Source: Aggregatilinea lenta | GTDB lineage: Bacteria; Chloroflexota; Anaerolineae; Aggregatilineales; Aggregatilineaceae | Direction: 5' to 3' | DNA: 64,000 bases | Assembly: GCF_003569045.1 (NCBI RefSeq) | Contig: NZ_BFCB01000003.1 | Coordinates: forward strand, 1,364,001-1,428,000 | In this document: positions 21,282-64,000 of the stretch, in pieces | How positions within the stretch are numbered: position 1 is the stretch's first letter | How the letters are laid out: the number at the start of each line of letters is the position of its first letter | Notes under the pieces: model-generated | Seen by the model: the letters and a program-made list of their open reading frames with translations, nothing else | The model's database searches: none | What the model was told of the DNA's origin: nothing | Translations under genes and position numbers: made by a program

Positions 21282-21917
21282 TCACTCTGCGGCGGATAAC
21301 GTGACGATTAGGTCCTCCATCAGTTCGATCTCGGCAGTCTGGTCGTCGATAATCTGCTGCGCCAGCGCGCGTAGATCCTCGTGTTCCGCATAGCGCAGCA
21401 CACGCGTCGCCATGTGGACCGCGTCGTCGTGGTGATCGATCATCGCTTCCAGCCAGGCCGCGTCATAGTCTGCGCCCTCGATCCGGTCGAAACCGGACAT
21501 CATGCCCATCATCAGCGGCATGTCAGTCAGGGGGTTAGCGGTATGATCGCCGTGCCCCATATCCATCATGCCGCTGGCCGCGCCCAGGCCCATCCAGTCC
21601 ATCAACTGCGCCATCGGGACCGGCGTATAGTCGATGCCATACCAATCCGTCAGCCAGCCGCGCATCAGCTCGATCTCCGGCGTCTGCGCGTCGATCACAC
21701 CCTGGCACAAGGTCCGCACGGCGTCCGACGACGTTTTGGCAAGGCAATGTTCCGCCATGTCCAGCGCCATCTGGTGGTGGTCGATCATCCCTTCCATGAA
21801 GCGCACCTCGGCGCGGGCGGCGCGCCCGGTCACGTCACCCTGGGCATAGGCGGTTCCCGCCACAGCCGAAACCAGGACCGCCAGAAGGACCAGCCAAACC
21901 TGCATTCGCTTCACCAT
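21282..21917 (-). CDS. DUF305-family exported protein with two repeats
   Basis: 211-residue exported protein with a signal peptide (residues 1-25, ending TAYAQ). It has two copies of the DUF305 four-helix unit, each marked by a His-rich motif: MIDHHQMALDMA and MIDHHDDAVHMA. A Met/His-rich linker (GMMDMGHGDH) joins them. DUF305 proteins are often found beside copper-handling genes, and the exposed His and Met residues fit metal binding, but the function is unproven. The ATG at 21917 follows GGAGA. It is divergent from the CuA operon, and a 7-2-7 dyad (21989-22006) lies about 42 bases before a plausible start point. Confidence 0.88.
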   Translation of the reverse strand: MVKRMQVWLVLLAVLVSAVAGTAYAQGDVTGRAARAEVRFMEGMIDHHQMALDMAEHCLAKTSSDAVRTLCQGVIDAQTPEIELMRGWLTDWYGIDYTPVPMAQLMDWMGLGAASGMMDMGHGDHTANPLTDMPLMMGMMSGFDRIEGADYDAAWLEAMIDHHDDAVHMATRVLRYAEHEDLRALAQQIIDDQTAEIELMEDLIVTLSAAE

Positions 21918-22149: not shown

Positions 22150-22590
22150 ATGCGCCCCCTTACGCGACTGATGTCCGTCGTCTTGCTGTTAGTGACCGGG
22201 CTGATCCTGGCCGGATGCGGCGGCAGCGCCGACGAAGCGCCCGCCGTCGCCGCGCTGCCCGACTGGGTGATGAGCGCTCCCACCCGCGTGCGCGAGGCGT
22301 ACGAGTACGCCGTCGCCAATCCTGAGGAGCTGGCAAAGTATCCGTGTTACTGCGGCTGTGGAGCAATGGGCCACACCAGCAATCTGAGCTGTTACATCCA
22401 GGACATCGCGCCGGACGGCACGATCACCTACGACAACCACGCTACCGGCTGCGGCATCTGCGTGGACATTGCGCAGGACGTGATGCGCCTCAAGGCGCAG
22501 GGCCAGTCCTCGCCGGAAGTGCGCGCTTACATCGACGCGCAGTACAGCCCCTTCGGTCCCGGCACGGACACGGCGCTGCCGCTGGACTAG
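22150..22590 (+). CDS. PCYCGC-motif lipoprotein
   Basis: 146-residue lipoprotein with a lipobox-type signal (LILAGCGGS, Cys near residue 24). The core motif KYPCYCGCGAMGH (about 63-75) and further cysteines (SCYIQD; GCGICVDIAQD) define the PCYCGC family. These proteins sit on the outer face of the membrane and occur near oxidase or copper genes; their biochemical role is unknown. Here it is the first gene of a five-gene operon with two CuA-type proteins, so delivery of copper or handling of thiols for CuA assembly is a reasonable guess. The next gene starts three bases after its stop. Confidence 0.85.
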   Translation: MRPLTRLMSVVLLLVTGLILAGCGGSADEAPAVAALPDWVMSAPTRVREAYEYAVANPEELAKYPCYCGCGAMGHTSNLSCYIQDIAPDGTITYDNHATGCGICVDIAQDVMRLKAQGQSSPEVRAYIDAQYSPFGPGTDTALPLD

Positions 22591-22593
22591 CCG

Positions 22594-23091
22594 ATGCTGA
22601 GCCGCCTTTCCGCCCACCCTCGCCTGGCGCTGATCCCGTTCGGCGTGCTGGTTCTGGTCGCGCTGCTCGCCCCGCTGCCAGGATCTGCCGCTCCCGAGAC
22701 GCGCACGCTGCACGTCGACGCGGCACAATTCGCCTTCACACCGGGCCGGGTGCAGGTCAACCAGGGCGACAGAATCACGATCACGCTCAGTGCGTCGGAT
22801 GTGGTGCACGGGTTCTACCTGGACGGGTACGGGCTGGAGCAGCGCATCGTACCGGGCGTCGCGCAGGAAGTGACGTTCATCGCCGACCGTCCCGGCAAGT
22901 TTCGATACCGCTGCGCAGTCAGCTGCGGTCCGCTGCACCCGTTCATGGTGGGTGAGCTGATCGTCGCAGCCAACACGCCCTACTGGCGTGCAATCGCCGT
23001 CGTGCTGAGCGCGTCGGCGGGCATGCTCGTCTACATGTGGTTTTCCGGTCAAAACAAGAGTGTTCAGGAGGTCAGTCGTGGCACAAGCTAA
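22594..23091 (+). CDS. Membrane-anchored CuA cupredoxin
   Basis: 165-residue protein with an N-terminal hydrophobic segment (11-32), a cupredoxin fold, and an unusual C-terminal membrane helix (about 132-150). The full CuA ligand set is present: H72 in VVHGFYLDG and C107, C111, H115 and M118 in CAVSCGPLHPFM. This matches the binuclear copper centre of cytochrome oxidase subunit II and nitrous-oxide reductase. Neither of those enzymes is encoded beside it, so it is likely an electron carrier or a standalone subunit. No ribosome site is obvious, so translation is probably coupled to the lipoprotein gene. Confidence 0.87.
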   Translation: MLSRLSAHPRLALIPFGVLVLVALLAPLPGSAAPETRTLHVDAAQFAFTPGRVQVNQGDRITITLSASDVVHGFYLDGYGLEQRIVPGVAQEVTFIADRPGKFRYRCAVSCGPLHPFMVGELIVAANTPYWRAIAVVLSASAGMLVYMWFSGQNKSVQEVSRGTS

Positions 23092-23599
23092 GAAGAGTCA
23101 GCGCCGCAAAAATGGCGGCATCAGCAGCGCGATCAAGTGGACCCTGGCGATCATCGCCGTCTGCGCCGCCGTCGTTTTTGCGCTGGTGCTCGCTGCGCCC
23201 GATCCCGGTCCGCAGGCGGGCCAAACCGTCTTCGATTCCGACTTCGAGCCGGAAGTGACCGGCGCGCCGCGCGTCAGTGTCGTCGAGGACGAGCTGATCG
23301 ATTATGGTGACGTGAAGCTCAACACCACAATCCAGACCAGCTACACCGTGCGCAACCTGGGTGATGAACCGCTGATGTTCGTCAACACGCCCTACGTCGA
23401 GGTGATCGAGGGCTGCTGCCCGCCGCAAGCCCAGGTCAGCGCGCCGGTCATCGAGCCGGGTCATGAGGGCACGGTGTCGTTCTCGTTCATGATGCACGAA
23501 GGCATGGGCGGCCCGCACGAGTTCCGCGTGCACCTGCAAACCAACGACCCCGCCGAGCCGGACAAGCAGCTCACAATCCTGTCGAACTGGGTATCCTGA
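23078..23599 (+). CDS. DUF1573-like membrane-anchored protein
   Basis: About 173 residues from GTG 23078, supported by AGGAGG six bases upstream; it overlaps the end of the CuA gene by 14 bases. A Lys/Arg-rich head and one membrane helix (about 18-40) are followed by an Ig-like DUF1573 domain (about 65-170; DYGDVKLNTTIQTSYTVRNL). The vicinal cysteines in EGCCPPQAQ and Met/His residues (MMHEGMGGPH) could bind metal. DUF1573 proteins are extracytoplasmic and of unknown function. Its tight coupling suggests a structural or metal-delivery part of the same complex. Confidence 0.8.
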   Translation: MAQAKKSQRRKNGGISSAIKWTLAIIAVCAAVVFALVLAAPDPGPQAGQTVFDSDFEPEVTGAPRVSVVEDELIDYGDVKLNTTIQTSYTVRNLGDEPLMFVNTPYVEVIEGCCPPQAQVSAPVIEPGHEGTVSFSFMMHEGMGGPHEFRVHLQTNDPAEPDKQLTILSNWVS

Positions 23600-23600
23600 C

Positions 23601-24983
23601 GTGCTGAACGAAGGGCGCATCGACCTGTTGGAGCGCGCGCCGCTGCTCAAGCGGCTGCTGAAGGCGCGCGCCTTCCAACCGGCCATGATGCTGGCCACGC
23701 TGCTGGTGTTCACGCTGGCGATCCTGGCCGGGATCGCGGGCACGCCTGCCGGAAGCCGCAACTTCGGCATCGTGTTCGTGTGGATCGTGTGGTGGGCACT
23801 GCTGATCGTCGTGCTGGTGCCGTTCTTCGGGCGGTTGTGGTGCACGATCTGCCCCATCCCCGCGCCCGGCGAGTGGCTCCAGCGCCGCGCCATTGTACGG
23901 CGCGGCGCGGCCCGCCTCTGGACGCGCGGCCTGCGCTGGCCCCGGCGCCTGAAAAACATGTGGCTGCAAAATTTTGGCTTCCTGGCCGTTGCGCTGTTCA
24001 GCACGATCATTCTCACCCGACCCGGCGTCAGCGCGTGGCTGCTGCTGAGCTTTCTGCTGGCGGGCGTGCTGCTGAGCGCGCTGTACAAAAACCGCGTGTT
24101 CTGCCGCTACGTCTGCCCGGTAGGCGGCTTCATCGGGCTGTACTCGCTGGTCTCCCCGGTCGAGCTGCGCGTGGCCGACCCCAACGTGTGCGCCGATCAC
24201 AAGACGAAGGACTGCATCACGGGGAACGAGTTCGGCTACGGCTGCCCGTGGATGGTGTTCCCCGGCAGCCTGACGCGCAACGCCTACTGCGGCCTGTGCT
24301 TCGAGTGCCTGAAAACCTGCCCCAAGAACAACATCGTGCTCAACCTGCGCCCGTTCGGCAGCGACCTGACCGTCGCCAAAGAGCGGCGACTGGACGAAGC
24401 CTATAAGGCGTTTATCATGCTCGGCTGTGCCCTGCTCTATTCGGCGGTGCTGCTCGGTCCGTGGGGCTGGTTGAAAGACTGGGCCAACATGGATACGCTG
24501 CCGCACTGGGCACTGTATGCGGCGAGCTTCCTGTCAGCCAATCTCGTGCTGCTGCCGGGGCTGTTCGGGCTGTCGGTGTGGATCGGACGTTCCGCGTCCG
24601 GCAGCGGCCAACCGCTGCGCCGCCTGTTCGTGGACTACGCCTACACGCTGATCCCGCTGGGGCTGGCCGCCTGGATCGCGTTCAGCACCGGGTTCGTGCT
24701 GGTCAACGGTAGCTACGCGCTAACCGTGCTCTCCGACCCGTTCGGCTGGGGCTGGGATCTGTTCGGCACGGCGGGCATGCACTGGACGCCGCTGGGCGCG
24801 ACGATCATCCCGTTTTTGCAAGTCGGTGTGCTGACCGCCGGGCTGATGGCCGCGCTCAACACCGCTTACAAGATCGCGCGGCAGCACGGCATCCCGCACC
24901 GGGCCGCGTTCGTAGAAGCGCTGCCCGTCAGCGGCTTCGCGCTGGTCGTCACGGTCGGCTTCTTACGGCTGTACCTGGGGTGA
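23601..24983 (+). CDS. NosR/NapH-like membrane iron-sulfur protein
   Basis: 460-residue polytopic membrane protein with around nine hydrophobic segments. Conserved elements are CTICPIPAPGEW (about 92-103), CRYVCPVGGFIGLYS (about 170-184) and a classic 4Fe-4S signature CGLCFECLKTCP (about 233-244); an extra Cys group CITGNEFGYGCPW lies before it. Such proteins pass electrons from the quinone pool to periplasmic carriers in nitrous-oxide, nitrate and organohalide respiration. Here it would feed the neighbouring CuA and cytochrome domains. GTG at 23601 is the start, just after the DUF1573 gene. The periplasmic flavin domain of true NosR is missing. Confidence 0.85.
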   Translation: MLNEGRIDLLERAPLLKRLLKARAFQPAMMLATLLVFTLAILAGIAGTPAGSRNFGIVFVWIVWWALLIVVLVPFFGRLWCTICPIPAPGEWLQRRAIVRRGAARLWTRGLRWPRRLKNMWLQNFGFLAVALFSTIILTRPGVSAWLLLSFLLAGVLLSALYKNRVFCRYVCPVGGFIGLYSLVSPVELRVADPNVCADHKTKDCITGNEFGYGCPWMVFPGSLTRNAYCGLCFECLKTCPKNNIVLNLRPFGSDLTVAKERRLDEAYKAFIMLGCALLYSAVLLGPWGWLKDWANMDTLPHWALYAASFLSANLVLLPGLFGLSVWIGRSASGSGQPLRRLFVDYAYTLIPLGLAAWIAFSTGFVLVNGSYALTVLSDPFGWGWDLFGTAGMHWTPLGATIIPFLQVGVLTAGLMAALNTAYKIARQHGIPHRAAFVEALPVSGFALVVTVGFLRLYLG

Positions 24984-26002
24984 GTATGGCGCGGCGCGAA
25001 CTACTTGCACGGATCATCTTAGGTCTGATCGTGATCGGCGTGCCGCTGGCTGTGCTGGGCTACCAGTACGGGCTGCGACCCGCCACCTCTTCGACGCGCA
25101 TCGTCGATGTCGATCTGCGCGTGCCGGAGGACGGCGGTTTTGCGCCGGACGCGATCACGGTGCTGGCGGGCGAGCCGGTGACGCTGCGCTTCAGCGCGCT
25201 GGACGTCACGCACGGCGTCGCCATCGGGCCAGGGCTGGACGTGGATCTCGGTCCGGTCGATCCCGGTCAGGTCAAGGCCATCACGCTAACGTTCGACCAC
25301 CCCGGCACGTATACTTACTACTGCACGACGTGGTGCAGCGACGATCACTGGCGCATGCGCGGCACAATCCAGGTGATCGATCCGGCTAATCCGGCGTTTG
25401 TGCCCACGACCGCGCCTGATCCGGTTATCGCGGCGCTGATCGCGGAGGGCGTGGACATCGACGCCGCGCACGGCAGCACGGACGCTCATGACGCCGATCA
25501 GCCCCTCGTTTTTGCGCGCCCGCTCTCGGCGGCACGCGGCGCGGCACTGCTGCCCGACACGACCATCCCGGCGGAGGTGAGCGATCCGGCGTGGCGGCGC
25601 ACGCATACGCCCGCGCAGGCGCTCGATCTGCTGGCAGATGCGAATCCCGGCGCGGCGCAGGTCGACGTGCTGGATGTGATCGCGCACCTGTGGACGGCGG
25701 GCACCGATCCCGGCTCCCTGGCGGACGCGCAGGCGCTGTACGACCAGAACTGCGCGGCCTGTCACGGCCAATATGGGAACGGCGATGGCCCCGCAGCAGA
25801 CACGACCGCCGAGCAGCCTGTCGCGTTTGCCGATCCCGCGTACCTGTTCGGGATGCGCGGCGACGTGCTCTACGCCAAGATCCGGCGCGGCGGGATGGGC
25901 ACGGGCATGCCCAATTTCGGCACCTTGTTGACGCCCGACGAAACCTGGGCGCTGGTCCAGTATCTGTGGACGTTGCCAGTAGCCGACTTAGATACAGACT
26001 GA
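24980..26002 (+). CDS. CuA cupredoxin - cytochrome c fusion protein
   Basis: About 340 residues: one N-terminal membrane helix (12-30), a CuA-type cupredoxin domain with H78, C115, C119, H123 and M126 (CTTWCSDDHWRM), a linker, and a class I cytochrome c domain with CAACH at 258-262 and a likely Met ligand at M310 (GMGTGMPNFG). The architecture resembles the soluble part of caa3 oxidase subunit II, but the two-helix membrane anchor and oxidase subunit I are absent. It overlaps the previous gene by four bases (GTGA), with an alternative ATG at 24986. It most likely carries electrons from the iron-sulfur protein to an unidentified acceptor. Confidence 0.87.
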   Translation: MSMARRELLARIILGLIVIGVPLAVLGYQYGLRPATSSTRIVDVDLRVPEDGGFAPDAITVLAGEPVTLRFSALDVTHGVAIGPGLDVDLGPVDPGQVKAITLTFDHPGTYTYYCTTWCSDDHWRMRGTIQVIDPANPAFVPTTAPDPVIAALIAEGVDIDAAHGSTDAHDADQPLVFARPLSAARGAALLPDTTIPAEVSDPAWRRTHTPAQALDLLADANPGAAQVDVLDVIAHLWTAGTDPGSLADAQALYDQNCAACHGQYGNGDGPAADTTAEQPVAFADPAYLFGMRGDVLYAKIRRGGMGTGMPNFGTLLTPDETWALVQYLWTLPVADLDTD

Positions 26003-27248: not shown

Positions 27249-28943
27249 TTACGGTCCCTTATCGTCCGGCGGTGTTTCAATTGGCGCCCTGACGGTGATG
27301 GTTGTGCCATCGCCGGGTTCCGACTTGACCTGCAGGTGAGCGCCAATCAGGGCCGCGCGCTCGTACATGCCCATGATGCCGAAATGCCGCTGCCCGGATG
27401 CGTCCAGCTCAGCGGTGTAACGCGGCGCAGTGAAGCCTTTGCCATCATCGCGTACCGTGATCGTGACCTGATCTGACGCGAACTGAACGGTCAGCCAGAT
27501 TTGAGATGCTTCACTATGCTGCCAGGCATTGTTGAGCGCTTCCTGGGCGATGCGATACATGGCTATTTCGTGCTCAGGGAGCAGGCGCTGCGGCGAGCCT
27601 GATTTCTCGAAGTGCACGTCCATTTTCTCGACCAGCCCCAGATCACGCGCCAGCATCTGCAAGGCAGGGGCGAGGCCGAGTTCCTCCAGGTAGATCGGGC
27701 GCAGCGCTCGCACGATGCGTCGCAGGTCGTCGATAATCTCAACGATCATGGCCCGGATTTCCGAGAGTAAATCGCTCGCCGCCGGATCACCCTTCAGATA
27801 CGGCTTGAGCATTTGTTCGCGATGATCCAGCGCGACAAGCGCCTGCGCGGTCTGGTCGTGCAGCTCGCGCGCCAGCCGCCGCCGCTCGTCTTCCTGCGCT
27901 TGCGTGATCGCGCCGATATAGTTATGCATACTGGCTTGTGCTGCCTGAACCCGTTTGGTCATGTGCTGAAGGGTGCCTTGCAGGTGACGGATTTCGGCAA
28001 TCCCGCCCACGGATCGTTCAATCGCGGCGAAGTCACCCCAGGCCAGTTCGGTGGCTTGCGCCTCCAGACGACGCAGCGGGTAGACGATACGTTGAATGCC
28101 CAGCCAGACCGCTCCAATGGCGATCAACAACCCCGGCACCAGCGCCAGTGGTGCAGCTTGCGAGTAGCGCATCAGCGGACTGAGGGTTTCCTGCCAGCGT
28201 TCCTCCTGTACCAGCACCCAGCCTGCCGCCGGAACGGGCGCAGACGTTGCAATGACATCCCGGCCTTCAGAGTCCTTACGTTCAAACGCTGTGGTCGTGG
28301 TGGTATCCGCGACTTGGGATGCGACATCTTCGGCATACCTGCCAACTTGCGACGGGTCGCTGTGATACAGAATCCGTCCCTCGGAACTGAGCACGTACAG
28401 GTGAATACTGCCCGACGTATGCAGGCTTTCCAGCACATCCGTTGAGGTCAACATACCCAGTGATACCACACCAGCCACCCGGATATTTTGCGCCGGACTG
28501 ACGAACATCACGCGCGTCGTATTCTGCCCATCCCGGACGAGCGGCACCAGGGCTGGCCCGGTTGGCTCCATGACCTGATCCGCCAGTGCCTGCCAGCCGG
28601 TTTGGGATGACGAGGCAGCTACTAGCCGCCCATCCTCAAAGACTGCTGCGCCGCCGTCAAATAAGACCGGAATCCACCGGGCGGTGTCCAGCACGTCTTG
28701 CGGGTTGCGACTGACCACCTCTGATGCAAACGAGGCCAGGATATGTTGGCGCTGAACGAGCTGGCCGGAAAGGGCACCGGCTGCGCCGGAGACCGCCTGC
28801 CGGTTGTGATCGACCAGCATGTCGCGCATTTCGGCTTGGTGCAGGGCCACACCACCGAATGCCACGATCACCAGCAGGATCAGCAGCGGCAGCACGACAA
28901 AAACGAGCAGTTGCAGCGGTAGGCTAGTCAGACGGAGTTTCAT
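27249..28943 (-). CDS. NarX-like sensor histidine kinase
   Basis: About 564 residues from the ATG at 28943. One membrane helix (10-35) is followed by a large extracytoplasmic dCACHE-like sensor (about 36-260), then a second helix (264-284), a HAMP linker (285-338), a HisKA_3 dimerisation domain with phospho-accepting H362 in ARELHDQ, and a HATPase_c domain with NNAWQHSEA and DDGKGF. The layout matches NarX/DegS-type kinases that pair with LuxR-type regulators. The gene overlaps the end of its regulator by 20 bases, so the two are co-translated. The signal is unknown; cache domains usually bind small ligands. Confidence 0.9.
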   Translation of the reverse strand: MKLRLTSLPLQLLVFVVLPLLILLVIVAFGGVALHQAEMRDMLVDHNRQAVSGAAGALSGQLVQRQHILASFASEVVSRNPQDVLDTARWIPVLFDGGAAVFEDGRLVAASSSQTGWQALADQVMEPTGPALVPLVRDGQNTTRVMFVSPAQNIRVAGVVSLGMLTSTDVLESLHTSGSIHLYVLSSEGRILYHSDPSQVGRYAEDVASQVADTTTTTAFERKDSEGRDVIATSAPVPAAGWVLVQEERWQETLSPLMRYSQAAPLALVPGLLIAIGAVWLGIQRIVYPLRRLEAQATELAWGDFAAIERSVGGIAEIRHLQGTLQHMTKRVQAAQASMHNYIGAITQAQEDERRRLARELHDQTAQALVALDHREQMLKPYLKGDPAASDLLSEIRAMIVEIIDDLRRIVRALRPIYLEELGLAPALQMLARDLGLVEKMDVHFEKSGSPQRLLPEHEIAMYRIAQEALNNAWQHSEASQIWLTVQFASDQVTITVRDDGKGFTAPRYTAELDASGQRHFGIMGMYERAALIGAHLQVKSEPGDGTTITVRAPIETPPDDKGP

Positions 28944-29601
28944 GGGAACCGGGCAACGCAAGCAATTCGAGCTGGGAGGCTTTGACGACCGCTTCGGTGC
29001 GGTTAGCGACGTTGAGCTTCTCGAAGATGCGGCGCAGGTGACCCTGCACCGTGCGGTCGCTGATGTCCAGCAGCAAGCCGATGGCTTTGTTGGTCAACCC
29101 GCGCGCTGCCGCCCGCAGGACCTCCAGCTCACGGTCGGTCAGTGGCTCGTAGAGGGTGGCGGGCCGGTGTGACGCCGTGACCGCGTGCATCAGTTTGGGC
29201 AGTATTTGAGGGTCCAGCACCGACTTGCCCTCATTAACTGCCCGCACCGCCGCGATGATCTCTTCCATGTCCGCCGTCTTGAGCACAAACCCATTCACGC
29301 CTGCTTCGAGCGCAGCCACGATGAACGGATCGTCATCGAAGGCGGTCAGGATCAGCAGGCCCACCGGCCAGCCGTGAGCGCGCACCCGCCGCGCGACCTC
29401 GATCCCGCTTGCTTCGGGCATCTGAATATCGAGCACGGCCACATCGGGTTGATGCTGCTCGATCAGCCGCAGCGCCTGTGCGCCATCTCCGGCTTCGGCC
29501 ACGACATCCATGCCCGCGCTGGCCAGAAACTGCTGGATGCCGTGCCGCACCACCTGATGATCGTCGGCCAGCACCACACGAATCGATTCGTTTGTCGTCA
29601 T
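28924..29601 (-). CDS. NarL/LuxR-type response regulator
   Basis: 225-residue two-domain regulator. The receiver has the acidic pair DD (13-14), phospho-acceptor D58 (AVLDIQMP) and conserved Lys in FVLKTAD. The C-terminal LuxR-type helix-turn-helix spans about 150-215 (LTDRELEVLRAAARGLTNKA). It is the first gene of a two-gene operon with the NarX-like kinase. NarL-type dimers bind inverted heptamers spaced by two bases, and exactly such 7-2-7 elements lie before this gene (29662-29679) and before the DUF305, CuA and DUF2085 genes. It is therefore the prime candidate regulator of that group (inference). Confidence 0.92.
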   Translation of the reverse strand: MTTNESIRVVLADDHQVVRHGIQQFLASAGMDVVAEAGDGAQALRLIEQHQPDVAVLDIQMPEASGIEVARRVRAHGWPVGLLILTAFDDDPFIVAALEAGVNGFVLKTADMEEIIAAVRAVNEGKSVLDPQILPKLMHAVTASHRPATLYEPLTDRELEVLRAAARGLTNKAIGLLLDISDRTVQGHLRRIFEKLNVANRTEAVVKASQLELLALPGSHETPSD

Positions 29602-30392: not shown

Positions 30393-31325
30393 ATGAATCG
30401 GAAAACCATCGCGGCTGCCGTTGTGTTGAGTGTTGTGTTTGGCCTTTGGGGCTTGCTCTATGGTTTGTCGCAAACGTTGAAACCTGAGCCTTTGCGCGCG
30501 CAGGTATACCCTGAGAGGTCACTGGTGCAGCAGCCAACTTCCGTATTGGCTGCTAACGGCGTACGTTATGACCAGTTGGTCCAGCAGGTCGCGCCACTCG
30601 CCGGGACCACTATCGCCGTCGTGTGGGGCGACATGGGGCAAAAGCTGGTTGCAGCCGGTGCAATCGACCTGGGCAAGGTCGAGGCACATTACAGCGGTCT
30701 GGACGAAGCGCAGCAGGCAGCGCTAGTGGGCGATGACCTCACGGCGATTTCGTTCACGCCGGAAAACATTCAGTTCTGGACCAACGTCCTGTGGTCGCTG
30801 GGGCTGATCCAGGACAGCAAGGTGCTGAGTAAAGGTCCCATGCAGCAAAATGTAGCGTGGACTCCCCTGGGCAACTACGCCTCGACAGGCGGCTGGACGC
30901 TGGGGAGCCAACCCGCCACCGACCTATACGGCAGCGCGCGTTTGGTTGACTTGACGCCTGAACAGGATGATCTGGTCTACGGCGTGGCTGAGCATATCTT
31001 TCGCCCGTGCTGTGGCAATCACGCCGCGTTTCCCGACTGCAATCACGGGATGGCAGTATTGGGTTTGCTCGAACTGATGGCGTCACAAGGTGCGACGGAA
31101 GATGAACTCTATCAAGCGGCGCTGACTTTCAACGCCTACGCGTTTTCGGATACCTATATCACATTGGCAGCATACTTTGCGCAGCAAGACATTCCCTGGG
31201 CGGACGTAAATGTCAAAGAGATTCTCGGGTCCGGCTATTCGAGTGGGCAAGCAGCGAGCCGTATTGCGGCAGCGGTCGGCCCGATCCCCGGCGTGCCAGT
31301 ACAGGGCGGAAGCTGCGGGGCGTAG
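30393..31325 (+). CDS. Exported protein of unknown function with CCGNH and CNHGM motifs
   Basis: 310 residues with an N-terminal membrane helix or signal (about 8-28). I do not recognise the family with certainty. The conserved-looking centre reads FRPCCGNHAAFPDCNHGMA (about 207-225), holding three Cys, two His and a Met in a short span, and a GSCGA end adds another Cys. These look like ligands for a metal ion. The rest is mostly helical and soluble, so it probably faces outward. It follows the broken YHS gene and ends at a strong terminator, separating it from the next two-component pair. Confidence 0.75.
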   Translation: MNRKTIAAAVVLSVVFGLWGLLYGLSQTLKPEPLRAQVYPERSLVQQPTSVLAANGVRYDQLVQQVAPLAGTTIAVVWGDMGQKLVAAGAIDLGKVEAHYSGLDEAQQAALVGDDLTAISFTPENIQFWTNVLWSLGLIQDSKVLSKGPMQQNVAWTPLGNYASTGGWTLGSQPATDLYGSARLVDLTPEQDDLVYGVAEHIFRPCCGNHAAFPDCNHGMAVLGLLELMASQGATEDELYQAALTFNAYAFSDTYITLAAYFAQQDIPWADVNVKEILGSGYSSGQAASRIAAAVGPIPGVPVQGGSCGA

Positions 31326-31444: not shown

Positions 31445-32137
31445 ATGACCTCAATCCTGATCATCGACGACGAAGAGAACATTCGCAATCTGGTGGACGC
31501 CTATCTGAAAGCCGAAGGCTACACGATTAACGCGGCGACAGATGGCCCGCAGGGGCTGGCACTGTTCCGGCGTCACCGTCCCGATCTGGTGATCCTGGAC
31601 ATCATGCTGCCGGGGATGGATGGGCTGGAAGTGTTGCAGCATATCCGGCGCGAGTCTGACGCGTACGTGATGATGCTTACCGCAAAATCCGAAGAGGCCG
31701 ATCGCGTGATCGGCCTGACGGTTGGCGCGGATGATTACCTGACGAAACCCTTCAGCCCGCGCGAATTGGTGGCACGGGTCAAGGCAATTCTACGGCGCGG
31801 GCGCAGCCCCGCAGCCGACGATGAACCGGCGCTGCGTTTCAAACGCCTGCAGATTGATGGACAGCGCTATGAGGTCTGGCGTGACGGGGAGATGATCGAG
31901 GATCTGACGACGCTGGAGTTCAAGCTGCTGAAGACTCTAGCAACCTATCCGGGCATGGTGCTCAGCCGCGAACAACTCCTCGAACAGGTATGGGGTTACG
32001 ATTTTTACGGTGAGGCGCGCGTGGTGGACGTGCATATCGGCCACATCCGGCAGAAAATCGAGTACGATCCAGCAAATCCGCAGTTCATCACCACTGTGCG
32101 TGGGGTAGGTTACAAATTCGAAGCTGAGCCGGTATAG
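31445..32137 (+). CDS. OmpR-family response regulator
   Basis: 230-residue two-domain regulator. The receiver carries DDE near residue 8, phospho-acceptor D52 (VILDIMLPGMDGLEV) and the KPFSPREL Lys. The C-terminal winged helix (about 130-228) ends with GVGYKFEAEP. It is followed 15 bases later by its histidine kinase. By position it probably controls the Met/Trp-rich secreted protein at 33372. The kinase has a Met-rich outer loop, so the signal may be a soft metal such as copper or silver (inference). Confidence 0.93.
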   Translation: MTSILIIDDEENIRNLVDAYLKAEGYTINAATDGPQGLALFRRHRPDLVILDIMLPGMDGLEVLQHIRRESDAYVMMLTAKSEEADRVIGLTVGADDYLTKPFSPRELVARVKAILRRGRSPAADDEPALRFKRLQIDGQRYEVWRDGEMIEDLTTLEFKLLKTLATYPGMVLSREQLLEQVWGYDFYGEARVVDVHIGHIRQKIEYDPANPQFITTVRGVGYKFEAEPV

Positions 32138-32152
32138 GATTTGGAACGGAAT

Positions 32153-33268
32153 ATGAGCCTGGGCTGGAAGTTTTTTCTTACCTACGTAGCGGTGGCGGCA
32201 ATTGCGCTGCTGGTTATGTCCATTTCGACGGCTTTTGTCGCGCCTGAAACCTTTTCCGATCACATGCAGTACATGCAGGGCAGCGGCATGATGATGGGCC
32301 AGGGTGCACGCGGCCAGCAGATCGAAGTGCTGGACGACGAACTGGATGCCAGCTTCCGCGAGGCCGTCAATAGTGCCCTGCTGCGCGCCGGGATCGCCGC
32401 GATCCTGGCCGCTGGCGTCGTGAGCTGGATCGTCACGCAGCGGATTATGCGCCCGCTGCGTACCATTGCCGACGCGAGCCAGAAGATCGCTGAGGGACAC
32501 TACGAACAACGCATTACCCACACCAGCCGAGATGAACTGGGCGAGATGGTTGACAGTTTTAACCGGATGGCAGCGTCACTGGCCGGGACCGAATCCATGC
32601 GCCAGCAGTTGATCGGGGATGTGAGTCACGAGTTAAAAACCCCCCTCGCCAGTATCAAAGGGTATATGGAAGGCTTGCAGGATGGCGTAATCCCTGCCAC
32701 GCCGGAAACGTACCAGCTTGTCCATCGCGAGGCGGATCGTTTGCAGCGGCTGGTGCGCGATTTGCAGGAACTTTCGCGAGCTGAGGCGAGTGCCGTGCCG
32801 CTCACGATGCGTCCCTGTCCGCCCGCTGGACTGGTAAACACCGTCACCGCCCGTTTGCAGCCGCAGTTTGCGGAAAAGGACGTCACGCTGACCGTCGATC
32901 TGTCTGCTAATCTCCCGCCGGTGCGTGCTGATGAGGATCGGATTGAGCAAGTACTGACTAATCTGCTAGGGAACGCGCTGCAATACACGCCTGAACACGG
33001 CGCGGTCACCGTCTCAGCGCGGATGGCTGCCGATGCCGTGGAGTTCGCGGTACACGACACCGGCATCGGTCTGGAGCCAGACGATCTCACGCACATTTTC
33101 CAGCGTTTCTATCGGGTCGATAAGTCGCGGTCGCGGGCTAGCGGCGGCAGCGGGATCGGCCTGACCATCGCACGCCACATCGTCGAGGCGCACGAGGGAG
33201 CCATCTGGGCCGAAAGCCCTGGCCTCGAACAAGGCAGCACTTTCTACTTCACCCTGCCAACCACCTGA
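32153..33268 (+). CDS. Sensor histidine kinase with Met-rich periplasmic loop
   Basis: About 371 residues: membrane helix 7-28, a short outer loop (about 29-75), second helix 78-96, HAMP (about 97-148), HisKA with H159 in GDVSHELKTP, and HATPase_c with NLLGNALQY and GSGIGL. The outer loop reads HMQYMQGSGMMMGQ at 37-50, six Met and one His-type ligand within 14 residues, a pattern expected for soft-metal binding. The ATG at 32153 is preferred over an upstream in-frame TTG at 32141. It is co-transcribed with the OmpR-type regulator. Confidence 0.9.
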   Translation: MSLGWKFFLTYVAVAAIALLVMSISTAFVAPETFSDHMQYMQGSGMMMGQGARGQQIEVLDDELDASFREAVNSALLRAGIAAILAAGVVSWIVTQRIMRPLRTIADASQKIAEGHYEQRITHTSRDELGEMVDSFNRMAASLAGTESMRQQLIGDVSHELKTPLASIKGYMEGLQDGVIPATPETYQLVHREADRLQRLVRDLQELSRAEASAVPLTMRPCPPAGLVNTVTARLQPQFAEKDVTLTVDLSANLPPVRADEDRIEQVLTNLLGNALQYTPEHGAVTVSARMAADAVEFAVHDTGIGLEPDDLTHIFQRFYRVDKSRSRASGGSGIGLTIARHIVEAHEGAIWAESPGLEQGSTFYFTLPTT

Positions 33269-33273
33269 GAATC

Positions 33274-33303
33274 TTTACACAAACTTCATGTTCGCAATAT
33301 ATA
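33274..33303 (+). promoter_or_regulatory. Promoter of the Met/Trp-repeat protein gene
   Basis: TTTACA (33274-33279) and TATATA (33298-33303) are separated by 18 bases, about 70 bases before the start codon at 33372. Confidence 0.55.
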
Positions 33304-33371
33304 GGCTTTGTACGAGCCGCTTACCATAACAGCTAGTTACTCAATCTGGTGCAAAAGAGGAGCGAATACAA

Positions 33372-33971
33372 ATGATGAAACGCGGTTTGGTGGTGGCTCT
33401 GGTAATCGTTGTGGTCATTGCTGGCTTCAGCGCCTGGAAGGCAAATGCTCAGGGACCCGACGGCAACGATGTGCCGCCGTGCGGACAATATTATGGACCC
33501 GGCATGATGCGCGGCGGCCATATGATGGGCGGCTGGAATGCGCCTGAGGATTGCCCCTACGCGGACGGTGCGTGGACTGATCCCGGTATGATGGACGGTT
33601 GGAATTGGGACGACTGCCCGTTTGCCGATAGTGAGTGGTCTGGGCGCGGGCTGATGCGTGGGCATGGCATGATGGGTGGCTGGAACACACCAGAAGATTG
33701 TCCTTTCGCGGACGAGATGTGGGGAGCCGCCGCCGGTGATGACGTTGAAATGACGCTGACCACCGATGACGCACGCGCTGCCGCGCAAGTCTATCTCGAT
33801 GAGATCTATCCCGGCCTGACAGTCGATGAAGAAGCGTGGACAGTTAATGGCTTTTTCATGTTGCACATCCTGGAGGACGGGCAGTTGGTTGGGATGCTGA
33901 GTGTCAACGGCACAACCGGCGATATCCGGCTGCACCATCAGCCCTGGTCAAGGTCGCCCCAGGACGTGTAG
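33372..33971 (+). CDS. Exported Met/Trp/Cys-repeat protein, possible metal binder
   Basis: 199 residues with a signal peptide (1-27, ending KANAQ). Residues about 37-117 hold three degenerate repeats built around GMM-x-GWN-xx-EDCPFAD, rich in Met, Trp, Cys and Asp. The C-terminal part (about 123-190) resembles a PepSY-like fold (DARAAAQVYLDEIYPGL). It has a good GAGGAG ribosome site and is followed by a clear terminator, so it is a single-gene unit. Placed directly after a kinase with a Met-rich sensor loop, it may bind the same metal at the cell surface. No characterised family is recognised. Confidence 0.8.
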   Translation: MMKRGLVVALVIVVVIAGFSAWKANAQGPDGNDVPPCGQYYGPGMMRGGHMMGGWNAPEDCPYADGAWTDPGMMDGWNWDDCPFADSEWSGRGLMRGHGMMGGWNTPEDCPFADEMWGAAAGDDVEMTLTTDDARAAAQVYLDEIYPGLTVDEEAWTVNGFFMLHILEDGQLVGMLSVNGTTGDIRLHHQPWSRSPQDV

Positions 33972-58064: not shown

Positions 58065-60446
58065 TCAGGATCTGAGCCGCAAAGAGTTGCCAACCACCAA
58101 TAAGCTGCTGCTCGCCATTGCCCCGGCGGCGATGATCGGACTGATGATCCCAAACGCAGCCAGCGGCACGGTGATCAGATTATAAGCAAAAGCCCAGCCC
58201 AGGTTTTGGTGGATAATTCGACGCGTGCGCCGTGATAGTTGTATGAACCACGGAATCAAAGTCAGATCGTGACGTGTCAGCACAATATCGGAAGTCTCGC
58301 CTGCAACATCCGTTCCGCCTGCCGTTGTGATGCTCACATCGGCCTGGGCCAGGGCCGGTGCATCATTCACACCATCACCGGTCATCGCCACGCATTCGCC
58401 GTCGTGTTGCCACGCCTTGATTCGATCCGCTTTTTCGGGTGGCGTGCAGTTTCCCTCGTATTCTGAGAGTCCAAGCTCAGTGGCAATCGACTGCGTTGTT
58501 AGCGGGTTGTCACCAGAAAGCACGACTGGCGTAATGTGGTCCCTCTTCAGGGCGGCCAACGCTGCTGCAGCGGTGGTATTCGGTTCATCGCGCAGGGCAA
58601 TGAATCCCGCGATGACATCTTCCCACCCCACCCAGATAACAGTTTCCCCCGCGACAACATGCGATTCTGCGCATTGAGCCAGTGATGGACTCTCCCCGCC
58701 CAGGAAGCGCAGCGATCCTATCATCACGCGTCGCTTTCCTTCCGCCCCGTGCACACCCGCCGTCACCCCCAGCCCACGCAGCACTTGAAAGCCTCCCGCT
58801 TCCGGCAGGGAGCTTTTGCAGCCCGCCACAATCGCCTTCGCAATCGGATGCTCGGAGAACTGCTCTACCGCTGCCGCTGTGCACAACAATTCATCGCCTG
58901 TCATAGCGATTTCGGGGGCAACCTCTGTCGCGACGACAGACATTTGCCCCTGGGTAAGGGTTCCGGTCTTGTCGAACACTATCCGCTGGATATTTGACGC
59001 AACCTCTAAAGCAGCCACATTGCGAACAAGAATCCCGGCGCGCGTGGTGCGTCCCAGCGTCACGGTGAGCGCCAGAGGCGTAGCCAGCCCTAAGGCGCAC
59101 GGGCAGGCAACCACCAATACGGCCACGCCCGCCAGCAGCGCCTGTGATACGCCGTGCCCGGTAAGGCCCCATAGCGCAACCGTCAGAATCGAGGCACCCA
59201 GAATACCAAACGCAAAATAGGCCGAGGCTTTATCGGCGAGACGTTGAATAGGAGGCTTGGAAGCCAGGGTACGCTCTACCAGGATCGTAGTTTGGGCCAG
59301 GCGTGTATCCTGGGGTGAGCGCACAACGCGGCAGATGAGCGCCATATCAGTGACGATAGTGCCCGCAAACACCGTTGCGCCCTCGCCCTTTTCTACCGGC
59401 ATGGACTCCCCCGTAAGCAGCGATTCGTCCAAGGCGGCGTGGCCGTCAAGGATCTCGGCATCAGCCGGTACACGCAGGCCAGGCTTGACCAGAATCGCAT
59501 CGCCGACAGCCAACGCAGCAGCTTTAACTTCCTCCCACGAGTCGCCATTCTGCCGTGTCGCCGTTTGAGGCTGCAAGCTCAGCAGCTTCCGAATATCCTT
59601 GCGAGCCTGAGCGCCTCCCACCGTTTCCAGGTAACGCCCAATCATCACAAACGTTGTGATCATCGCTACCGAATCAAAATAGACTTCGCCGCCACCCGTG
59701 AGTGTAATGTACACGCTGTAGAAATAGGCCGACAGCGTTCCGAGCGACACAAGTGTGTCCATGGTCGCGGTGCGCGCGCGCACCGCCCGCACAGCGCCGC
59801 GCAGAAACGAGATCCCACCTACAAAGAGTACCGGCGTCGCCAGCGCCCATACGACAAATTGCAGCCGGCGTACTTCGCTTGTCTCGAAGTCGCCTGCGTT
59901 GTAAAGGGGATAGAGCCGCTCAAGAGTCAGGAGCATTACCTGCATACCAAACGCCAGCGCGGTAATCAGCTGCAGCAGCGTCCGCTGCTGCTGGCGCTCG
60001 TCACGCTGCTCGGCGGCGTCGCTGAGAAGGCGAGCGCGATAGCCCAACCCATCCAGGCGGCGCAGCACCTCTGATGGATCAACCGCAGCAGGATCGTATT
60101 GAATCCGCCCTCGTTCGGCGGCAAAACTGACATCGACGCTTTTGATGCCAGGTTGATTGCGAAGCACTTGTTCGGCAGCTACGGCGCAGCCCGCGCACCA
60201 CATCCCCTCCAGCGAGAAATACGCGCTCTCGCCACGTGGTGCAAGGACCAGATTCGTGAAACTCGAGCGCGATGCAGCAGGCTTAGCGATAACCTGGTCA
60301 AGGATGTGGTTATCATATGCTGCTTGGTAAACGCGCGCGCATCCCTGGCAACAAAAGTGCTTCTCTTCGCCGTCGAACGTGCGCACAACCGGCTCCCCAC
60401 GAACCGGCATCCCGCACAACGCACAGCGATCCTGTTCCGCGGCCAT
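58065..60446 (-). CDS. Copper-transporting P1B-type ATPase (CtpA/FixI-like)
   Basis: 793 residues. The N-terminus holds a Cys-rich zinc-ribbon/YHS-like unit (CALCG at 8-12, CCQGC at 32-36) and an HMA domain with CAGC at 84-87. Eight membrane helices follow, with CPC at 448-450, then DKTGT (492-496) and TGDGVNDAPAL. The pattern of an extra Cys-rich head is typical of FixI/CtpA-type ATPases that supply copper to cbb3 oxidase, matching the oxidase genes just upstream, though a strong terminator separates them. It exports Cu+ to the periplasm for CuB/CuA assembly. Confidence 0.93.
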   Translation of the reverse strand: MAAEQDRCALCGMPVRGEPVVRTFDGEEKHFCCQGCARVYQAAYDNHILDQVIAKPAASRSSFTNLVLAPRGESAYFSLEGMWCAGCAVAAEQVLRNQPGIKSVDVSFAAERGRIQYDPAAVDPSEVLRRLDGLGYRARLLSDAAEQRDERQQQRTLLQLITALAFGMQVMLLTLERLYPLYNAGDFETSEVRRLQFVVWALATPVLFVGGISFLRGAVRAVRARTATMDTLVSLGTLSAYFYSVYITLTGGGEVYFDSVAMITTFVMIGRYLETVGGAQARKDIRKLLSLQPQTATRQNGDSWEEVKAAALAVGDAILVKPGLRVPADAEILDGHAALDESLLTGESMPVEKGEGATVFAGTIVTDMALICRVVRSPQDTRLAQTTILVERTLASKPPIQRLADKASAYFAFGILGASILTVALWGLTGHGVSQALLAGVAVLVVACPCALGLATPLALTVTLGRTTRAGILVRNVAALEVASNIQRIVFDKTGTLTQGQMSVVATEVAPEIAMTGDELLCTAAAVEQFSEHPIAKAIVAGCKSSLPEAGGFQVLRGLGVTAGVHGAEGKRRVMIGSLRFLGGESPSLAQCAESHVVAGETVIWVGWEDVIAGFIALRDEPNTTAAAALAALKRDHITPVVLSGDNPLTTQSIATELGLSEYEGNCTPPEKADRIKAWQHDGECVAMTGDGVNDAPALAQADVSITTAGGTDVAGETSDIVLTRHDLTLIPWFIQLSRRTRRIIHQNLGWAFAYNLITVPLAAFGIISPIIAAGAMASSSLLVVGNSLRLRS

Positions 60447-61170: not shown

Positions 61171-61349
61171 GGCTCGCTTCCTTTCCGATCCGGCCATGGC
61201 TGCGGCTCGTGGTCTTCGAGCATTCGATATTTCGCCTCTTCAATATCTTCGAGCTGGCCGTTTTTCCACCCCCAGATCAAAAACAAGATCCCTGTGGCAA
61301 TAACGAGGGCCATCCAGCCCACCACAACCCACATTCCAAAAGGCATCAT
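61167..61349 (-). CDS. CcoS-like cbb3 oxidase maturation protein
   Basis: 60 residues: one membrane helix (about 5-28) followed by WKNGQLEDIEEAKYRMLED. This matches the pattern of CcoS (aromatic-xx-(K/R)xGQ(F/L)-(D/E)D-(L/I)E with later R-x-(L/M)), a small protein needed for cofactor insertion into cbb3 oxidase. The start overlaps the previous stop (ATGA) and AGGAGG lies six bases upstream. It could instead be a CcoQ-type subunit; the tail motif favours CcoS. Confidence 0.75.
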   Translation of the reverse strand: MMPFGMWVVVGWMALVIATGILFLIWGWKNGQLEDIEEAKYRMLEDHEPQPWPDRKGSEP

Positions 61350-63358
61350 TGCGCACCTCCTGTGGGAGTTGCCGTCGCATCGGGAACAGGCGTTGCCGCA
61401 GGGGTTTGGCTCGCCGTCGGCGTGGACGATCCAGGCGAAGCGACCATGTTCTGGAGGTAGACCGTCACATCCCAGATGTCGGTTTCGGGGAGCGCCCACT
61501 GGAACGGCGGCATGATTGCGCTGGGCACGCCATCCCAAACACGCCAGAAAATATAGGCTTCCGGCAGATCGGCTGGATAGGGAGCGGGTCCCTGGCTTGC
61601 ACTACCCTGCGTCCCCGGCCCATCTCCCTGCCCGCCATCACCGTGGCATGTGGCGCAGTAAGTAGCATAGACTTGTGCGCCGCGATCCGTATCGATCACG
61701 TGCCCTTCACCGGTCCAGTTATCCTCACTCAATGTAACGAAGTTTGCAGCGATCTCCCCGCTGCCGTACACGCTCTCGGTAACGGGCATCCCGGTCATGA
61801 ACGCAGACATCAGGTAGTCGATAGCCTCCCAGCGGGCGTCTTCGGGCAGCCATTCACCCCAGCTTGGCATAGCCGTGTCTTGAATCCCAAAGGTTACTTT
61901 GGCAAGATGCTCCGCTTGAGCATCTTGCGACATCGGCATCCCGGCCATCTGGCGAAAATCGGCAGGCTGCGGATCGAGATATTGGCCGTCCCAACCCTGG
62001 CCATCCCCTGCCAGACCGTGACAATGAGCACAGTTTTGCAGGAAGGTCACGCGCCCGCGTTCGAACGAGACGGTGTCGGGAAGCGCCTGCGCCTGGTACA
62101 CTTCCGGAAACGCGAAGTCTTGTCCCTGCGGCGGAGGATCTGGCCGTTCCTCGGTGTGCGTGAAAATCACACGAATATAGTGCACCAGCTTCCAGCGATC
62201 TTCCTCCGAATAGCGCAGCTTCCAGACAGGCATGGCGCTCCACGGCAGCCCTTCGCTGATCCGCCAGAAGTAGTCGGCATCGGTGTAGGATGGATCTTGC
62301 AGGGTACCATAGCTGCCGTCGCTAAAATCGGGAGGTGACGGCTGGAGGAAATCTCCGTAGGGGCCATGCCCGGTACCGGCATCACCGTGACATACCATAC
62401 ATTCACGGGTGAAAATATGCTTGCCTTCATCCAATGTGGCAACCGTCAGTTCCACGGGATTTGTCAGATCGGCGTAATCGCCTGACGGATCGCCTTCAGC
62501 CGGATCGCGCATGGAAGGACGCGCAAAGATTTGCTGGATGTACCGGATGACCTTCCAGCGATCCTCCGTGGTCAACTCATCCTTCCAGGGCGGCATGACC
62601 GATCCCTGGACGCCCTCGGACACATGCCAGAACCATTGGTCGTCGGGCATGCTGCGGAACGGTTCTTGTTTAAAGTCCGCAGGCGTGATGATCAGGCTCT
62701 GGGCATAGCTTCCCAGACCGTTGCCGGAACATCCGTGGCAGGTCAAACACCGGTCAACGTAGATCTCTTTACCATCCTGCAAGCCTGCATCAGTCCAGGT
62801 TTGCCAGCCCTGATCGGACTGAGTGACCGTGACAAGCGGGTACTCGATGGGATCACTCTCATACGCATATTGCTCTGGCGGCAGGATCATACGCTCGCCA
62901 GCCACCCGGTCGCCGAGCGCAAACAGATAGGCAGCGATATCGCTCAGCTCCGAGTCCGAGAGAAACTCAAAGCTCGGCATGATCGACATGGGCGAGTACT
63001 GCCGCGGATCTTTGAGATGATCGATCTCCCAGGTTTCGCTGCGCTTGCGCCCGATATACGAAAGATCGGGACCGGTTCGCTCGGACCCCAGGATCATGGG
63101 GTCATCATAGACGTAATTGCCGCCTTGAGAAACGGGTCCCATGCCCGTATCCTCTTCACGCACGTACTGCGTGTGGCAGTAGTTGCAGCCGTTGGAATAA
63201 AACTGTTCGCGTCCCCGTGCTTGTTGATCGGTATAGGGATGCGCAATCGTGGTTTCTTCCGGGTTCCAGATCAAGCCGGGCACAAACACCGCAACTGTGA
63301 CCACGGCGAAAAACACGATCAGCCCCCCAATAACGATGATGGGAAAGGTCATTTTCAT
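61346..63358 (-). CDS. CcoO-like cbb3 oxidase subunit fused to four more cytochrome c domains
   Basis: 670 residues. One N-terminal membrane helix (about 5-30) and a CcoO-type cytochrome domain with haem site CNYCH (58-62), MGPVSQGGNYVYDD and GSERTGPDLSYIG. Then four further class I cytochrome c domains follow: CLTCH (204-208), CMVCH (320-324), CAHCH (443-447) and CATCH (568-572), each with a downstream MPPW-, MPVW- or MPSW-type Met ligand. The Thr/Pro/Ala-rich tail looks like a linker. Standard CcoO has one haem and CcoP two, so this five-haem chain appears to replace both. It lies 11 bases after the CcoN gene. Signal: electron wire from quinol or cytochromes to the oxidase. Confidence 0.88.
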   Translation of the reverse strand: MKMTFPIIVIGGLIVFFAVVTVAVFVPGLIWNPEETTIAHPYTDQQARGREQFYSNGCNYCHTQYVREEDTGMGPVSQGGNYVYDDPMILGSERTGPDLSYIGRKRSETWEIDHLKDPRQYSPMSIMPSFEFLSDSELSDIAAYLFALGDRVAGERMILPPEQYAYESDPIEYPLVTVTQSDQGWQTWTDAGLQDGKEIYVDRCLTCHGCSGNGLGSYAQSLIITPADFKQEPFRSMPDDQWFWHVSEGVQGSVMPPWKDELTTEDRWKVIRYIQQIFARPSMRDPAEGDPSGDYADLTNPVELTVATLDEGKHIFTRECMVCHGDAGTGHGPYGDFLQPSPPDFSDGSYGTLQDPSYTDADYFWRISEGLPWSAMPVWKLRYSEEDRWKLVHYIRVIFTHTEERPDPPPQGQDFAFPEVYQAQALPDTVSFERGRVTFLQNCAHCHGLAGDGQGWDGQYLDPQPADFRQMAGMPMSQDAQAEHLAKVTFGIQDTAMPSWGEWLPEDARWEAIDYLMSAFMTGMPVTESVYGSGEIAANFVTLSEDNWTGEGHVIDTDRGAQVYATYCATCHGDGGQGDGPGTQGSASQGPAPYPADLPEAYIFWRVWDGVPSAIMPPFQWALPETDIWDVTVYLQNMVASPGSSTPTASQTPAATPVPDATATPTGGAQ

Positions 63359-63369
63359 GGCTGTACCCT

Positions 63370-64000
63370 CTAGCGCCCCGCTGCAACTGGCTCGACGACC
63401 GCGATAGGCATAACGGGTCGCGAGACGGGTCTACGCTGCCAGACCGTCGCAAAGATGTTGTAGGAGAACAGCACAAAGCTGATAACCAGCAGTCCTCCAC
63501 CCGACGCACGAAGTGCCATATAGGGTCGCAAACCCGGCAGCACTTCCCAAACCGGCAGCCCCTGGTGTACCCAGGAGGTTCCCTGTACCAGTCCGGTCAA
63601 CAGGAACCCGGCGAAGAAAAAGATGAAGCCAACGACATAGATGCTGTATTGAACATTAGCCAGCGTCCGGCTGTAAATCTCGCAATCGTAGATGCGGGGG
63701 ATGACGTAATACATCCCGCCGATGATCACTGAAGCAGAAAAGAACATCAGGGCCAGGTGCGCATGGCCTGGCACATATTGGGTGAAATGGGTCAGCAGAT
63801 TGATGCCACGCAGTGCCTGGTGCGATCCCTGGTAGGACACCAAAATGTACGCTGCCCAGCCGGTGATCACGAAACGCAGCGGAACACTGGAAAAGAAGCG
63901 ATTCCAGTTGCCGCGCATCGTCAGGTAAATATTCATCATGAACGCCACCACGGGCAGAATCATGCCGATGCTTTCGGCGACAGCAATCGTCTTGAGCCAG
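63370..64000 (-). CDS. ccoN: cbb3-type cytochrome c oxidase subunit I (CcoN), 5' end cut by window
   Basis: About 210 C-terminal residues of the catalytic subunit. Five membrane helices are visible. The conserved paired histidines in YVPGHAHLALMFFSASVIIG are the haem b and haem b3 ligands expected in CcoN, and VIPRIY follows. In cbb3 oxidase this subunit carries CuB and both b haems and reduces O2 at low oxygen tension. The N-terminal part with the CuB ligands is outside the window. It heads the gene group with the five-haem CcoO-like protein and CcoS. Confidence 0.9.
   Translation of the reverse strand, partial: WLKTIAVAESIGMILPVVAFMMNIYLTMRGNWNRFFSSVPLRFVITGWAAYILVSYQGSHQALRGINLLTHFTQYVPGHAHLALMFFSASVIIGGMYYVIPRIYDCEIYSRTLANVQYSIYVVGFIFFFAGFLLTGLVQGTSWVHQGLPVWEVLPGLRPYMALRASGGGLLVISFVLFSYNIFATVWQRRPVSRPVMPIAVVEPVAAGR

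Follow-up and report, generated by a model that had tools for sequence, protein, structure and literature searches.

A 64,000-nucleotide stretch of the Aggregatilinea lenta genome (hereafter the window; C3:1364001-1428000 of a 6.2 Mb assembly in 5 contigs, 98% complete) carries, at 22150-26002, five genes that encode two CuA proteins, a membrane iron-sulfur (Fe-S) protein and two further proteins. All five lie on one strand, each either slightly overlapping the next or 1-3 bp from it, and make up a single tight operon. It begins with a PCYCGC lipoprotein (22150-22590, +; lipobox LAGC), followed by CuA1, an extracytoplasmic CuA cupredoxin with a C-terminal membrane helix (22594-23091, +), a DUF1573/OS_HP2-like protein with an N-terminal helix and a GCC motif (23078-23599, +), a NapH-like polytopic membrane protein of 460 amino acids and about nine transmembrane helices (23601-24983, +), and CuA2-cytochrome c, which has an N-terminal anchor, a complete CuA site and one CXXCH haem motif (24980-26002, +). 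The initial annotation had proposed this linkage and these families, and both stand; an adjustment concerns the start of the DUF1573-like gene, most likely the GTG at 23078, which has AGGAGG upstream and replaces 23060.

The PCYCGC protein contains the CxCxC motif and matches PF13798 at E 1e-30 (106.8 bits, cut-off 25), scoring 67.8 bits against the narrower NF041379, under its cut-off of 90. CuA1 matches Cupredoxin_1/COX2 together with the CuA domains of NosZ and CoxB, and the 460-residue membrane protein matches Fer4_5 (PF12801; 37.7 bits, cut-off 22). The third protein matches OS_HP2 and, at 25.9 bits, falls just short of the DUF1573 cut-off (26.1). The OS_HP names probably refer to Olavius-symbiont proteins; a published review of the selenoproteome speaks against reading them as organometal-system proteins.

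For the NapH-like protein, a genome scan confirmed 132 relatives, and 80 of these were kept for comparison; the closest come from Chloroflexota metagenome-assembled genomes (MAGs), at 84% identity. The usual order among relatives is PCYCGC, CuA1, NapH-like, CuA2, and the five-gene order recurs across several phyla (Chloroflexota, Acidimicrobiia, Rokubacteria and Methylomirabilota), with the relatives of the PCYCGC module forming one branch of 64 rows (support 98, in a tree built by a quick method with Shimodaira-Hasegawa-like approximate likelihood ratio support only). Both CuA proteins have the full ligand set of two Cys, two His and one Met, as first proposed, and the CxxxCxxxHxxM pattern is intact in 78 of 79 CuA1 and 69 of 71 CuA2 relatives, an evident conservation far beyond chance; 65 of the 71 CuA2 proteins also carry the haem motif. 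In an alignment of 35 NapH-like sequences, nine of the 11 cysteines (C81, C84, C168, C172, C197, C205, C215, C230, C233, C236 and C240) are invariant and the other two nearly so. No histidine is invariant across these sequences, so nothing points to a haem b route across the membrane. Hydropathy and the positive-inside rule place all 11 cysteines in positively charged cytoplasmic loops and predict the conserved SDPFGWGWDLFGT loop to lie outside, with CuA on the side opposite the Fe-S cysteines; both this topology and a contact between CuA1 and the NapH-like protein are inferred.

In six loci (L029, L059, L073, L075, L076 and L077) CuA1 is fused to the NapH-like N-terminus, the same position that the flavin mononucleotide (FMN) domain holds in most NapH-like systems (PMC8238504). 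These fusions support the view that the membrane Fe-S protein has CuA as its redox partner on the outer side, where CuA would replace the FMN of NapH-like/NosR systems. In a structure model of the L029 fusion (predicted local distance difference test score 85.7), the CuA domain resembles those of NosZ and ba3 oxidase at Z ∼15; no structural match was seen for the NapH part, the match list being filled by the CuA domain. Searches of the PDB found no convincing sequence relative of the NapH-like protein or PCYCGC.

In the PCYCGC protein, C66, C68, C70, H75 and C81 are invariant, and H97 and the pair C101xxC104 are near-invariant. Three relatives (TGA-containing lipoprotein genes at L026 8630-9223, L029 8937-9380 and L049 8838-9284) have an in-frame TGA exactly at C101, beyond which the frame goes on with the conserved ICVDI/ICIDI, so that selenocysteine is likely at this position. 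A review lists the PCYCGC family among UxxC selenoproteins and DUF1573 as another selenoprotein family (PMC13188914). Similarity of the PCYCGC fold to the CcmH periplasmic domain was also considered and set aside, as the best matches (Z 4.7, Foldseek E 0.61) are not evidence. As for the electron donor, a gene for a GltD-like NAD(P)H Fe-S flavoprotein stands behind the NapH-like gene in four loci (L061, L103, L110 and L112), so that some lineages may use NAD(P)H as the donor.

The initial annotation had remarked that both nosZ and oxidase subunit I were missing. This is correct for nosZ, which is found neither in the window nor in the source genome; it does not hold for the oxidase, as the C-terminal part of a cbb3-type CcoN occupies the right edge of the window (63370-63999) and extends outside, beside a 670-residue multi-haem cytochrome (61346-63358) and a CcoI-like P-type ATPase (58065-60446). 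This edge, ∼37 kb away, holds the COX1 nearest to the operon. The source genome as a whole encodes aa3 (on C1), cbb3 and bd oxidases and two NirK. Both NirK have an extra N-terminal cupredoxin-like domain (G000 C3:1222162-1223061 and C3:2052227-2053129). Within the PCYCGC clade the genes are not routine neighbours of nosZ or an oxidase: across 63 loci (1.05 Mb) no nosZ is adjacent, and a single CoxA lies 6.5 kb away. The refuting case named in the initial annotation therefore fails for this clade. Such adjacency is confined to L055, L062 and L075, placed outside the PCYCGC clade in the tree, where the core adjoins genuine nosZ (915 bits in L055, cut-off 625) and nos-propeller domains are present in all three.

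Of 400 Chloroflexota genomes searched, 42 gave the module family and 29 gave nosZ. Only three had both, and all three carry the most divergent NapH-like type (213-255 bits). None of the 29 genomes with closer module types contains nosZ (2.1 expected, p 0.10), nor does any of the 12 close-copy genomes (p 0.40). This zero overlap is not significant, 2.1 expected being too few to prove avoidance; it does indicate that the module has no need of NosZ. No L-NosZ exceeded its cut-off in any of the 400 genomes, and NosZ and L-NosZ were rejected as partners in the genome or phylum, none occurring in the close-copy genomes. The 12 close-copy genomes contain a haem-copper oxidase in 11 cases and a bd oxidase in eight, with a full NirK match in six, a weak one in another and none in five, so that NirK too was rejected as an obligate partner. 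In G176, a 96% complete draft where the module is present beside a Cu-ATPase, no haem-copper oxidase, bd oxidase, NirK or NosZ was detected. This removes haem-copper oxidase from the list of obligate partners; no tested terminal enzyme is obligate for the module. The missing terminal reductase noted at the outset is thus perhaps not needed at all, the recurring neighbours being copper-handling genes and G176 showing none of the enzymes sought.

Of 15 close copies, 12 have a Cu-export ATPase (model TIGR01511, independent of the neighbour clusters built from the loci) no more than 15 kb away, against 0.57 expected; the p of ∼1e-15 supposes random placement and independent copies and is optimistic, several of the genomes being related. 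Genes for Cu-ATPase and CopZ-like proteins were found at 14 of 22 close loci, and 20 control stretches taken from eight of these genomes had none; the comparison is partly circular because the profiles were built from the loci. Clustering recovered Cu P-type ATPases, CopZ-like domains, CopM, Met-rich proteins, cupredoxins, multicopper oxidases, DoxX and two-component systems as recurring neighbours. In the window itself, a CopM/DUF305 copper metallochaperone is encoded divergently from the operon (21282-21917, -); CopM is found near the module at six of the 22 close loci and in none of the control stretches. Downstream are a two-component system (27249-29601, -; histidine kinase 27249-28961, LuxR-type regulator 28924-29601) and an array of OmpR regulator, histidine kinase with Met-rich sensor and Met-rich secreted protein (31445-33971, +; the last at 33372-33971). 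Between them, at 30393-31325, is a 310-residue protein with the motif PCCGNHxxxPDCNHGMA and no Pfam or NCBIfam match, relatives of which occur near the module in about seven other loci.

Several related arrangements were observed in other lineages. A second divergent NapH-like protein stands beside YtkA-like proteins in L096 (4524-6673), L098 (5853-), L113 and L114, with the CuA module a few kb off in the first two; L113 and L114 are the two loci of the divergent type that were checked, L113 having been assigned by clustering with L114. Four loci from FCPU426 and one proteobacterial MAG (L066, L068, L069 and L071) combine CuA, a ferritin-like (MbfA-like) protein, NapH-like, CuA-cytochrome c and a mono-haem protein of ∼430-459 residues, barrel-like in sequence, that is possibly a cytochrome-porin. 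In Rokubacteria and Myxococcota, a YVTN beta-propeller of 305-316 residues (L073 8608-9549, L076 8608-9558, L077 1-918) is encoded directly before the CuA1-NapH fusion gene. It has exactly seven invariant histidines, six of them at the same P/S/T-H blade position, and may represent a split N2O-reductase-like enzyme whose CuA sits on a separate chain; it scores only 103-109 bits against L-NosZ (cut-off 700), less than against other propeller models (pyrroloquinoline quinone-associated, hydrazine synthase beta).

We tentatively favour a transmembrane electron-transfer module that serves extracytoplasmic copper/thiol homeostasis, because of the Cu-ATPases by the close copies, the CopM gene in the window, the gene set of G176, the CuA1-NapH fusions, the predicted topology and the CxxC/UxxC of PCYCGC. 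The NapH-like protein, with Fe-S clusters on the cytoplasmic side, would trade electrons through the membrane with the externally tethered CuA1, from which they would move to the second CuA protein with its c-type haem; the module would thereby set the redox state of copper, of the Cys-rich PCYCGC and DUF1573-like proteins, or of both. We infer the direction of flow, the donor (menaquinol or NAD(P)H) and the client (copper or PCYCGC). A more specific proposal, which we regard as doubtful, is that a cytoplasmic reductant feeds the haem-free NapH-like protein, the CuA carriers and finally extracytoplasmic copper via the Cys/Sec PCYCGC lipoprotein, an undescribed class that would reduce or, in reverse, re-oxidise copper and so provide respiration-independent control outside the membrane. 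Five points count against a role in copper homeostasis. The Cu-ATPase nearest to the operon in the window is 33 kb off and belongs to the oxidase-assembly (CcoI) type; the need of CuA proteins for copper could by itself explain the nearby copper genes; a c-type haem would be more usual in a respiratory donor; the G176 assembly is a draft (96% complete, 250 contigs); and the deeper relatives are clearly tied to NosZ.

The main rival is a respiratory branch, in which the module would act as an alternative quinol:cytochrome c (CuA) reductase and supply the cbb3/aa3 oxidase or NirK much as NosR/NosGH feed NosZ, and we consider it unlikely, if still a serious contender. It would account for an operon ending in CuA-cytochrome c, for the haem-copper oxidases and full NirK matches of most or half of the close-copy genomes, for the aa3, cbb3, bd and NirK enzymes of the source genome and for the nosZ neighbours of deeper relatives, but it sits poorly with the 63 PCYCGC loci, where the distant CoxA is the only candidate neighbour, with the five close-copy genomes that lack NirK and with G176, in which all four enzymes went undetected. 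Quite unlikely is service to an unrecognised terminal reductase elsewhere in the genome, such as a gas or N-oxide reductase: sister lineages do pair the core with clade II NosZ (L055, L062, L075) or with the seven-histidine propeller (L073, L076, L077), yet no unknown enzyme family recurs near the PCYCGC loci and the Chloroflexota genomes yielded no L-NosZ above its cut-off. Electrons might also flow inward, the CuA/cytochrome side oxidising Cu(I) or another extracellular donor as an O2-independent counterpart of the multicopper oxidases. The multicopper oxidases, Cu-ATPases and Met-rich proteins of the same islands fit such a scheme, as does the proposed redox role of FtrB, the cupredoxin of the Fe2+-specific FtrABCD transporter (PMC11966278); the four loci in which a GltD-like NAD(P)H protein accompanies NapH point instead to outward flow in some lineages, and we judge the inward direction very unlikely. 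That the operon is the electron-donor half of a nosZ operon split by rearrangement is scarcely credible: core homologues adjoin nosZ in three deep relatives, whereas the order is fixed with PCYCGC across the 64-row clade and nosZ is missing from the 29 Chloroflexota genomes with closer module types and from the source genome, which itself argues that the module is no split-off Nos operon.

The cassette thus seems to be an undescribed redox system linking the cell interior to copper-centred carriers outside. In the literature on PCYCGC and on CuA plus NapH we found no description of the module, so that the suggestion of an undescribed quinol-to-periplasm pathway holds as regards a conserved, undescribed unit, with quinol as one possible donor. 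The CuA centres known so far come mainly from cytochrome oxidase, NosZ and CuA-type nitric oxide reductase, and in each case they let electrons into a catalytic enzyme. In the present module, CuA seems to form the outer half of a general NapH-type device that is plugged into different partners by lineage, which offers a simple route by which NosZ and oxidases could have acquired CuA electron donors. The module also provides a concrete system for haem b-free electron passage across the membrane, a question left by NosR and NapH, and ties the orphan PCYCGC and DUF1573 families, including their selenoproteins, to a testable pathway.

By its sequence, the module belongs to the NapH-like electron-transfer systems, in which a Fer4_5 membrane protein works with an adjacent outer redox domain, and is neither NosR nor NapH nor part of a Nos operon. 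The flavinylated members of these systems include NosR and PceC (Meheust et al., 2021; PMC8238504). They share with the module a polytopic Fer4_5 protein passing electrons to an extracytoplasmic domain, fused or adjacent, and a modular pairing with varied partners. The outer cofactor differs, being CuA here and covalent FMN there, and the module adds PCYCGC, the DUF1573-like protein and CuA-cytochrome c in a cluster without an oxidoreductase; no operon protein matches FMN_bind, and the NosR model gives only 14.6 bits. The quinol-oxidising NosGH/NapGH modules have the NapH-type membrane Fe-S protein in common with it, but with four transmembrane helices (PMC3475470) rather than about nine, and the operon has no NapG/NosG-type ferredoxin; the NapH models TIGR02163 and NF007013 score 29.1 bits (cut-off 213) and 21.2 bits (cut-off 234). 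The module's CuA domains share their fold (model Z ∼15) and all ligands with those of caa3/ba3 subunit II and NosZ, while standing alone, without a catalytic subunit. CcoG, a cbb3 assembly factor, is likewise a membrane Fe-S oxidoreductase in a copper context; it is not known to have a CuA partner, and profile searches of the operon proteins gave no hit to a ccoG model or FixG_C. CcoG is described as an Fe-S membrane protein that works as a cupric reductase (PMC8267372, citing Marckmann 2019). The FtrABCD iron transporter has a cupredoxin in its operon and, in some bacteria, also FtrD, whereas the module has no P19 or FTR1 permease, and FtrB is not a CuA protein. FtrD is a polyferredoxin. The transporter joins FtrD with the cupredoxin FtrB (PMC11966278), and together CcoG and FtrABCD offer precedents for the logic of a copper-redox role.

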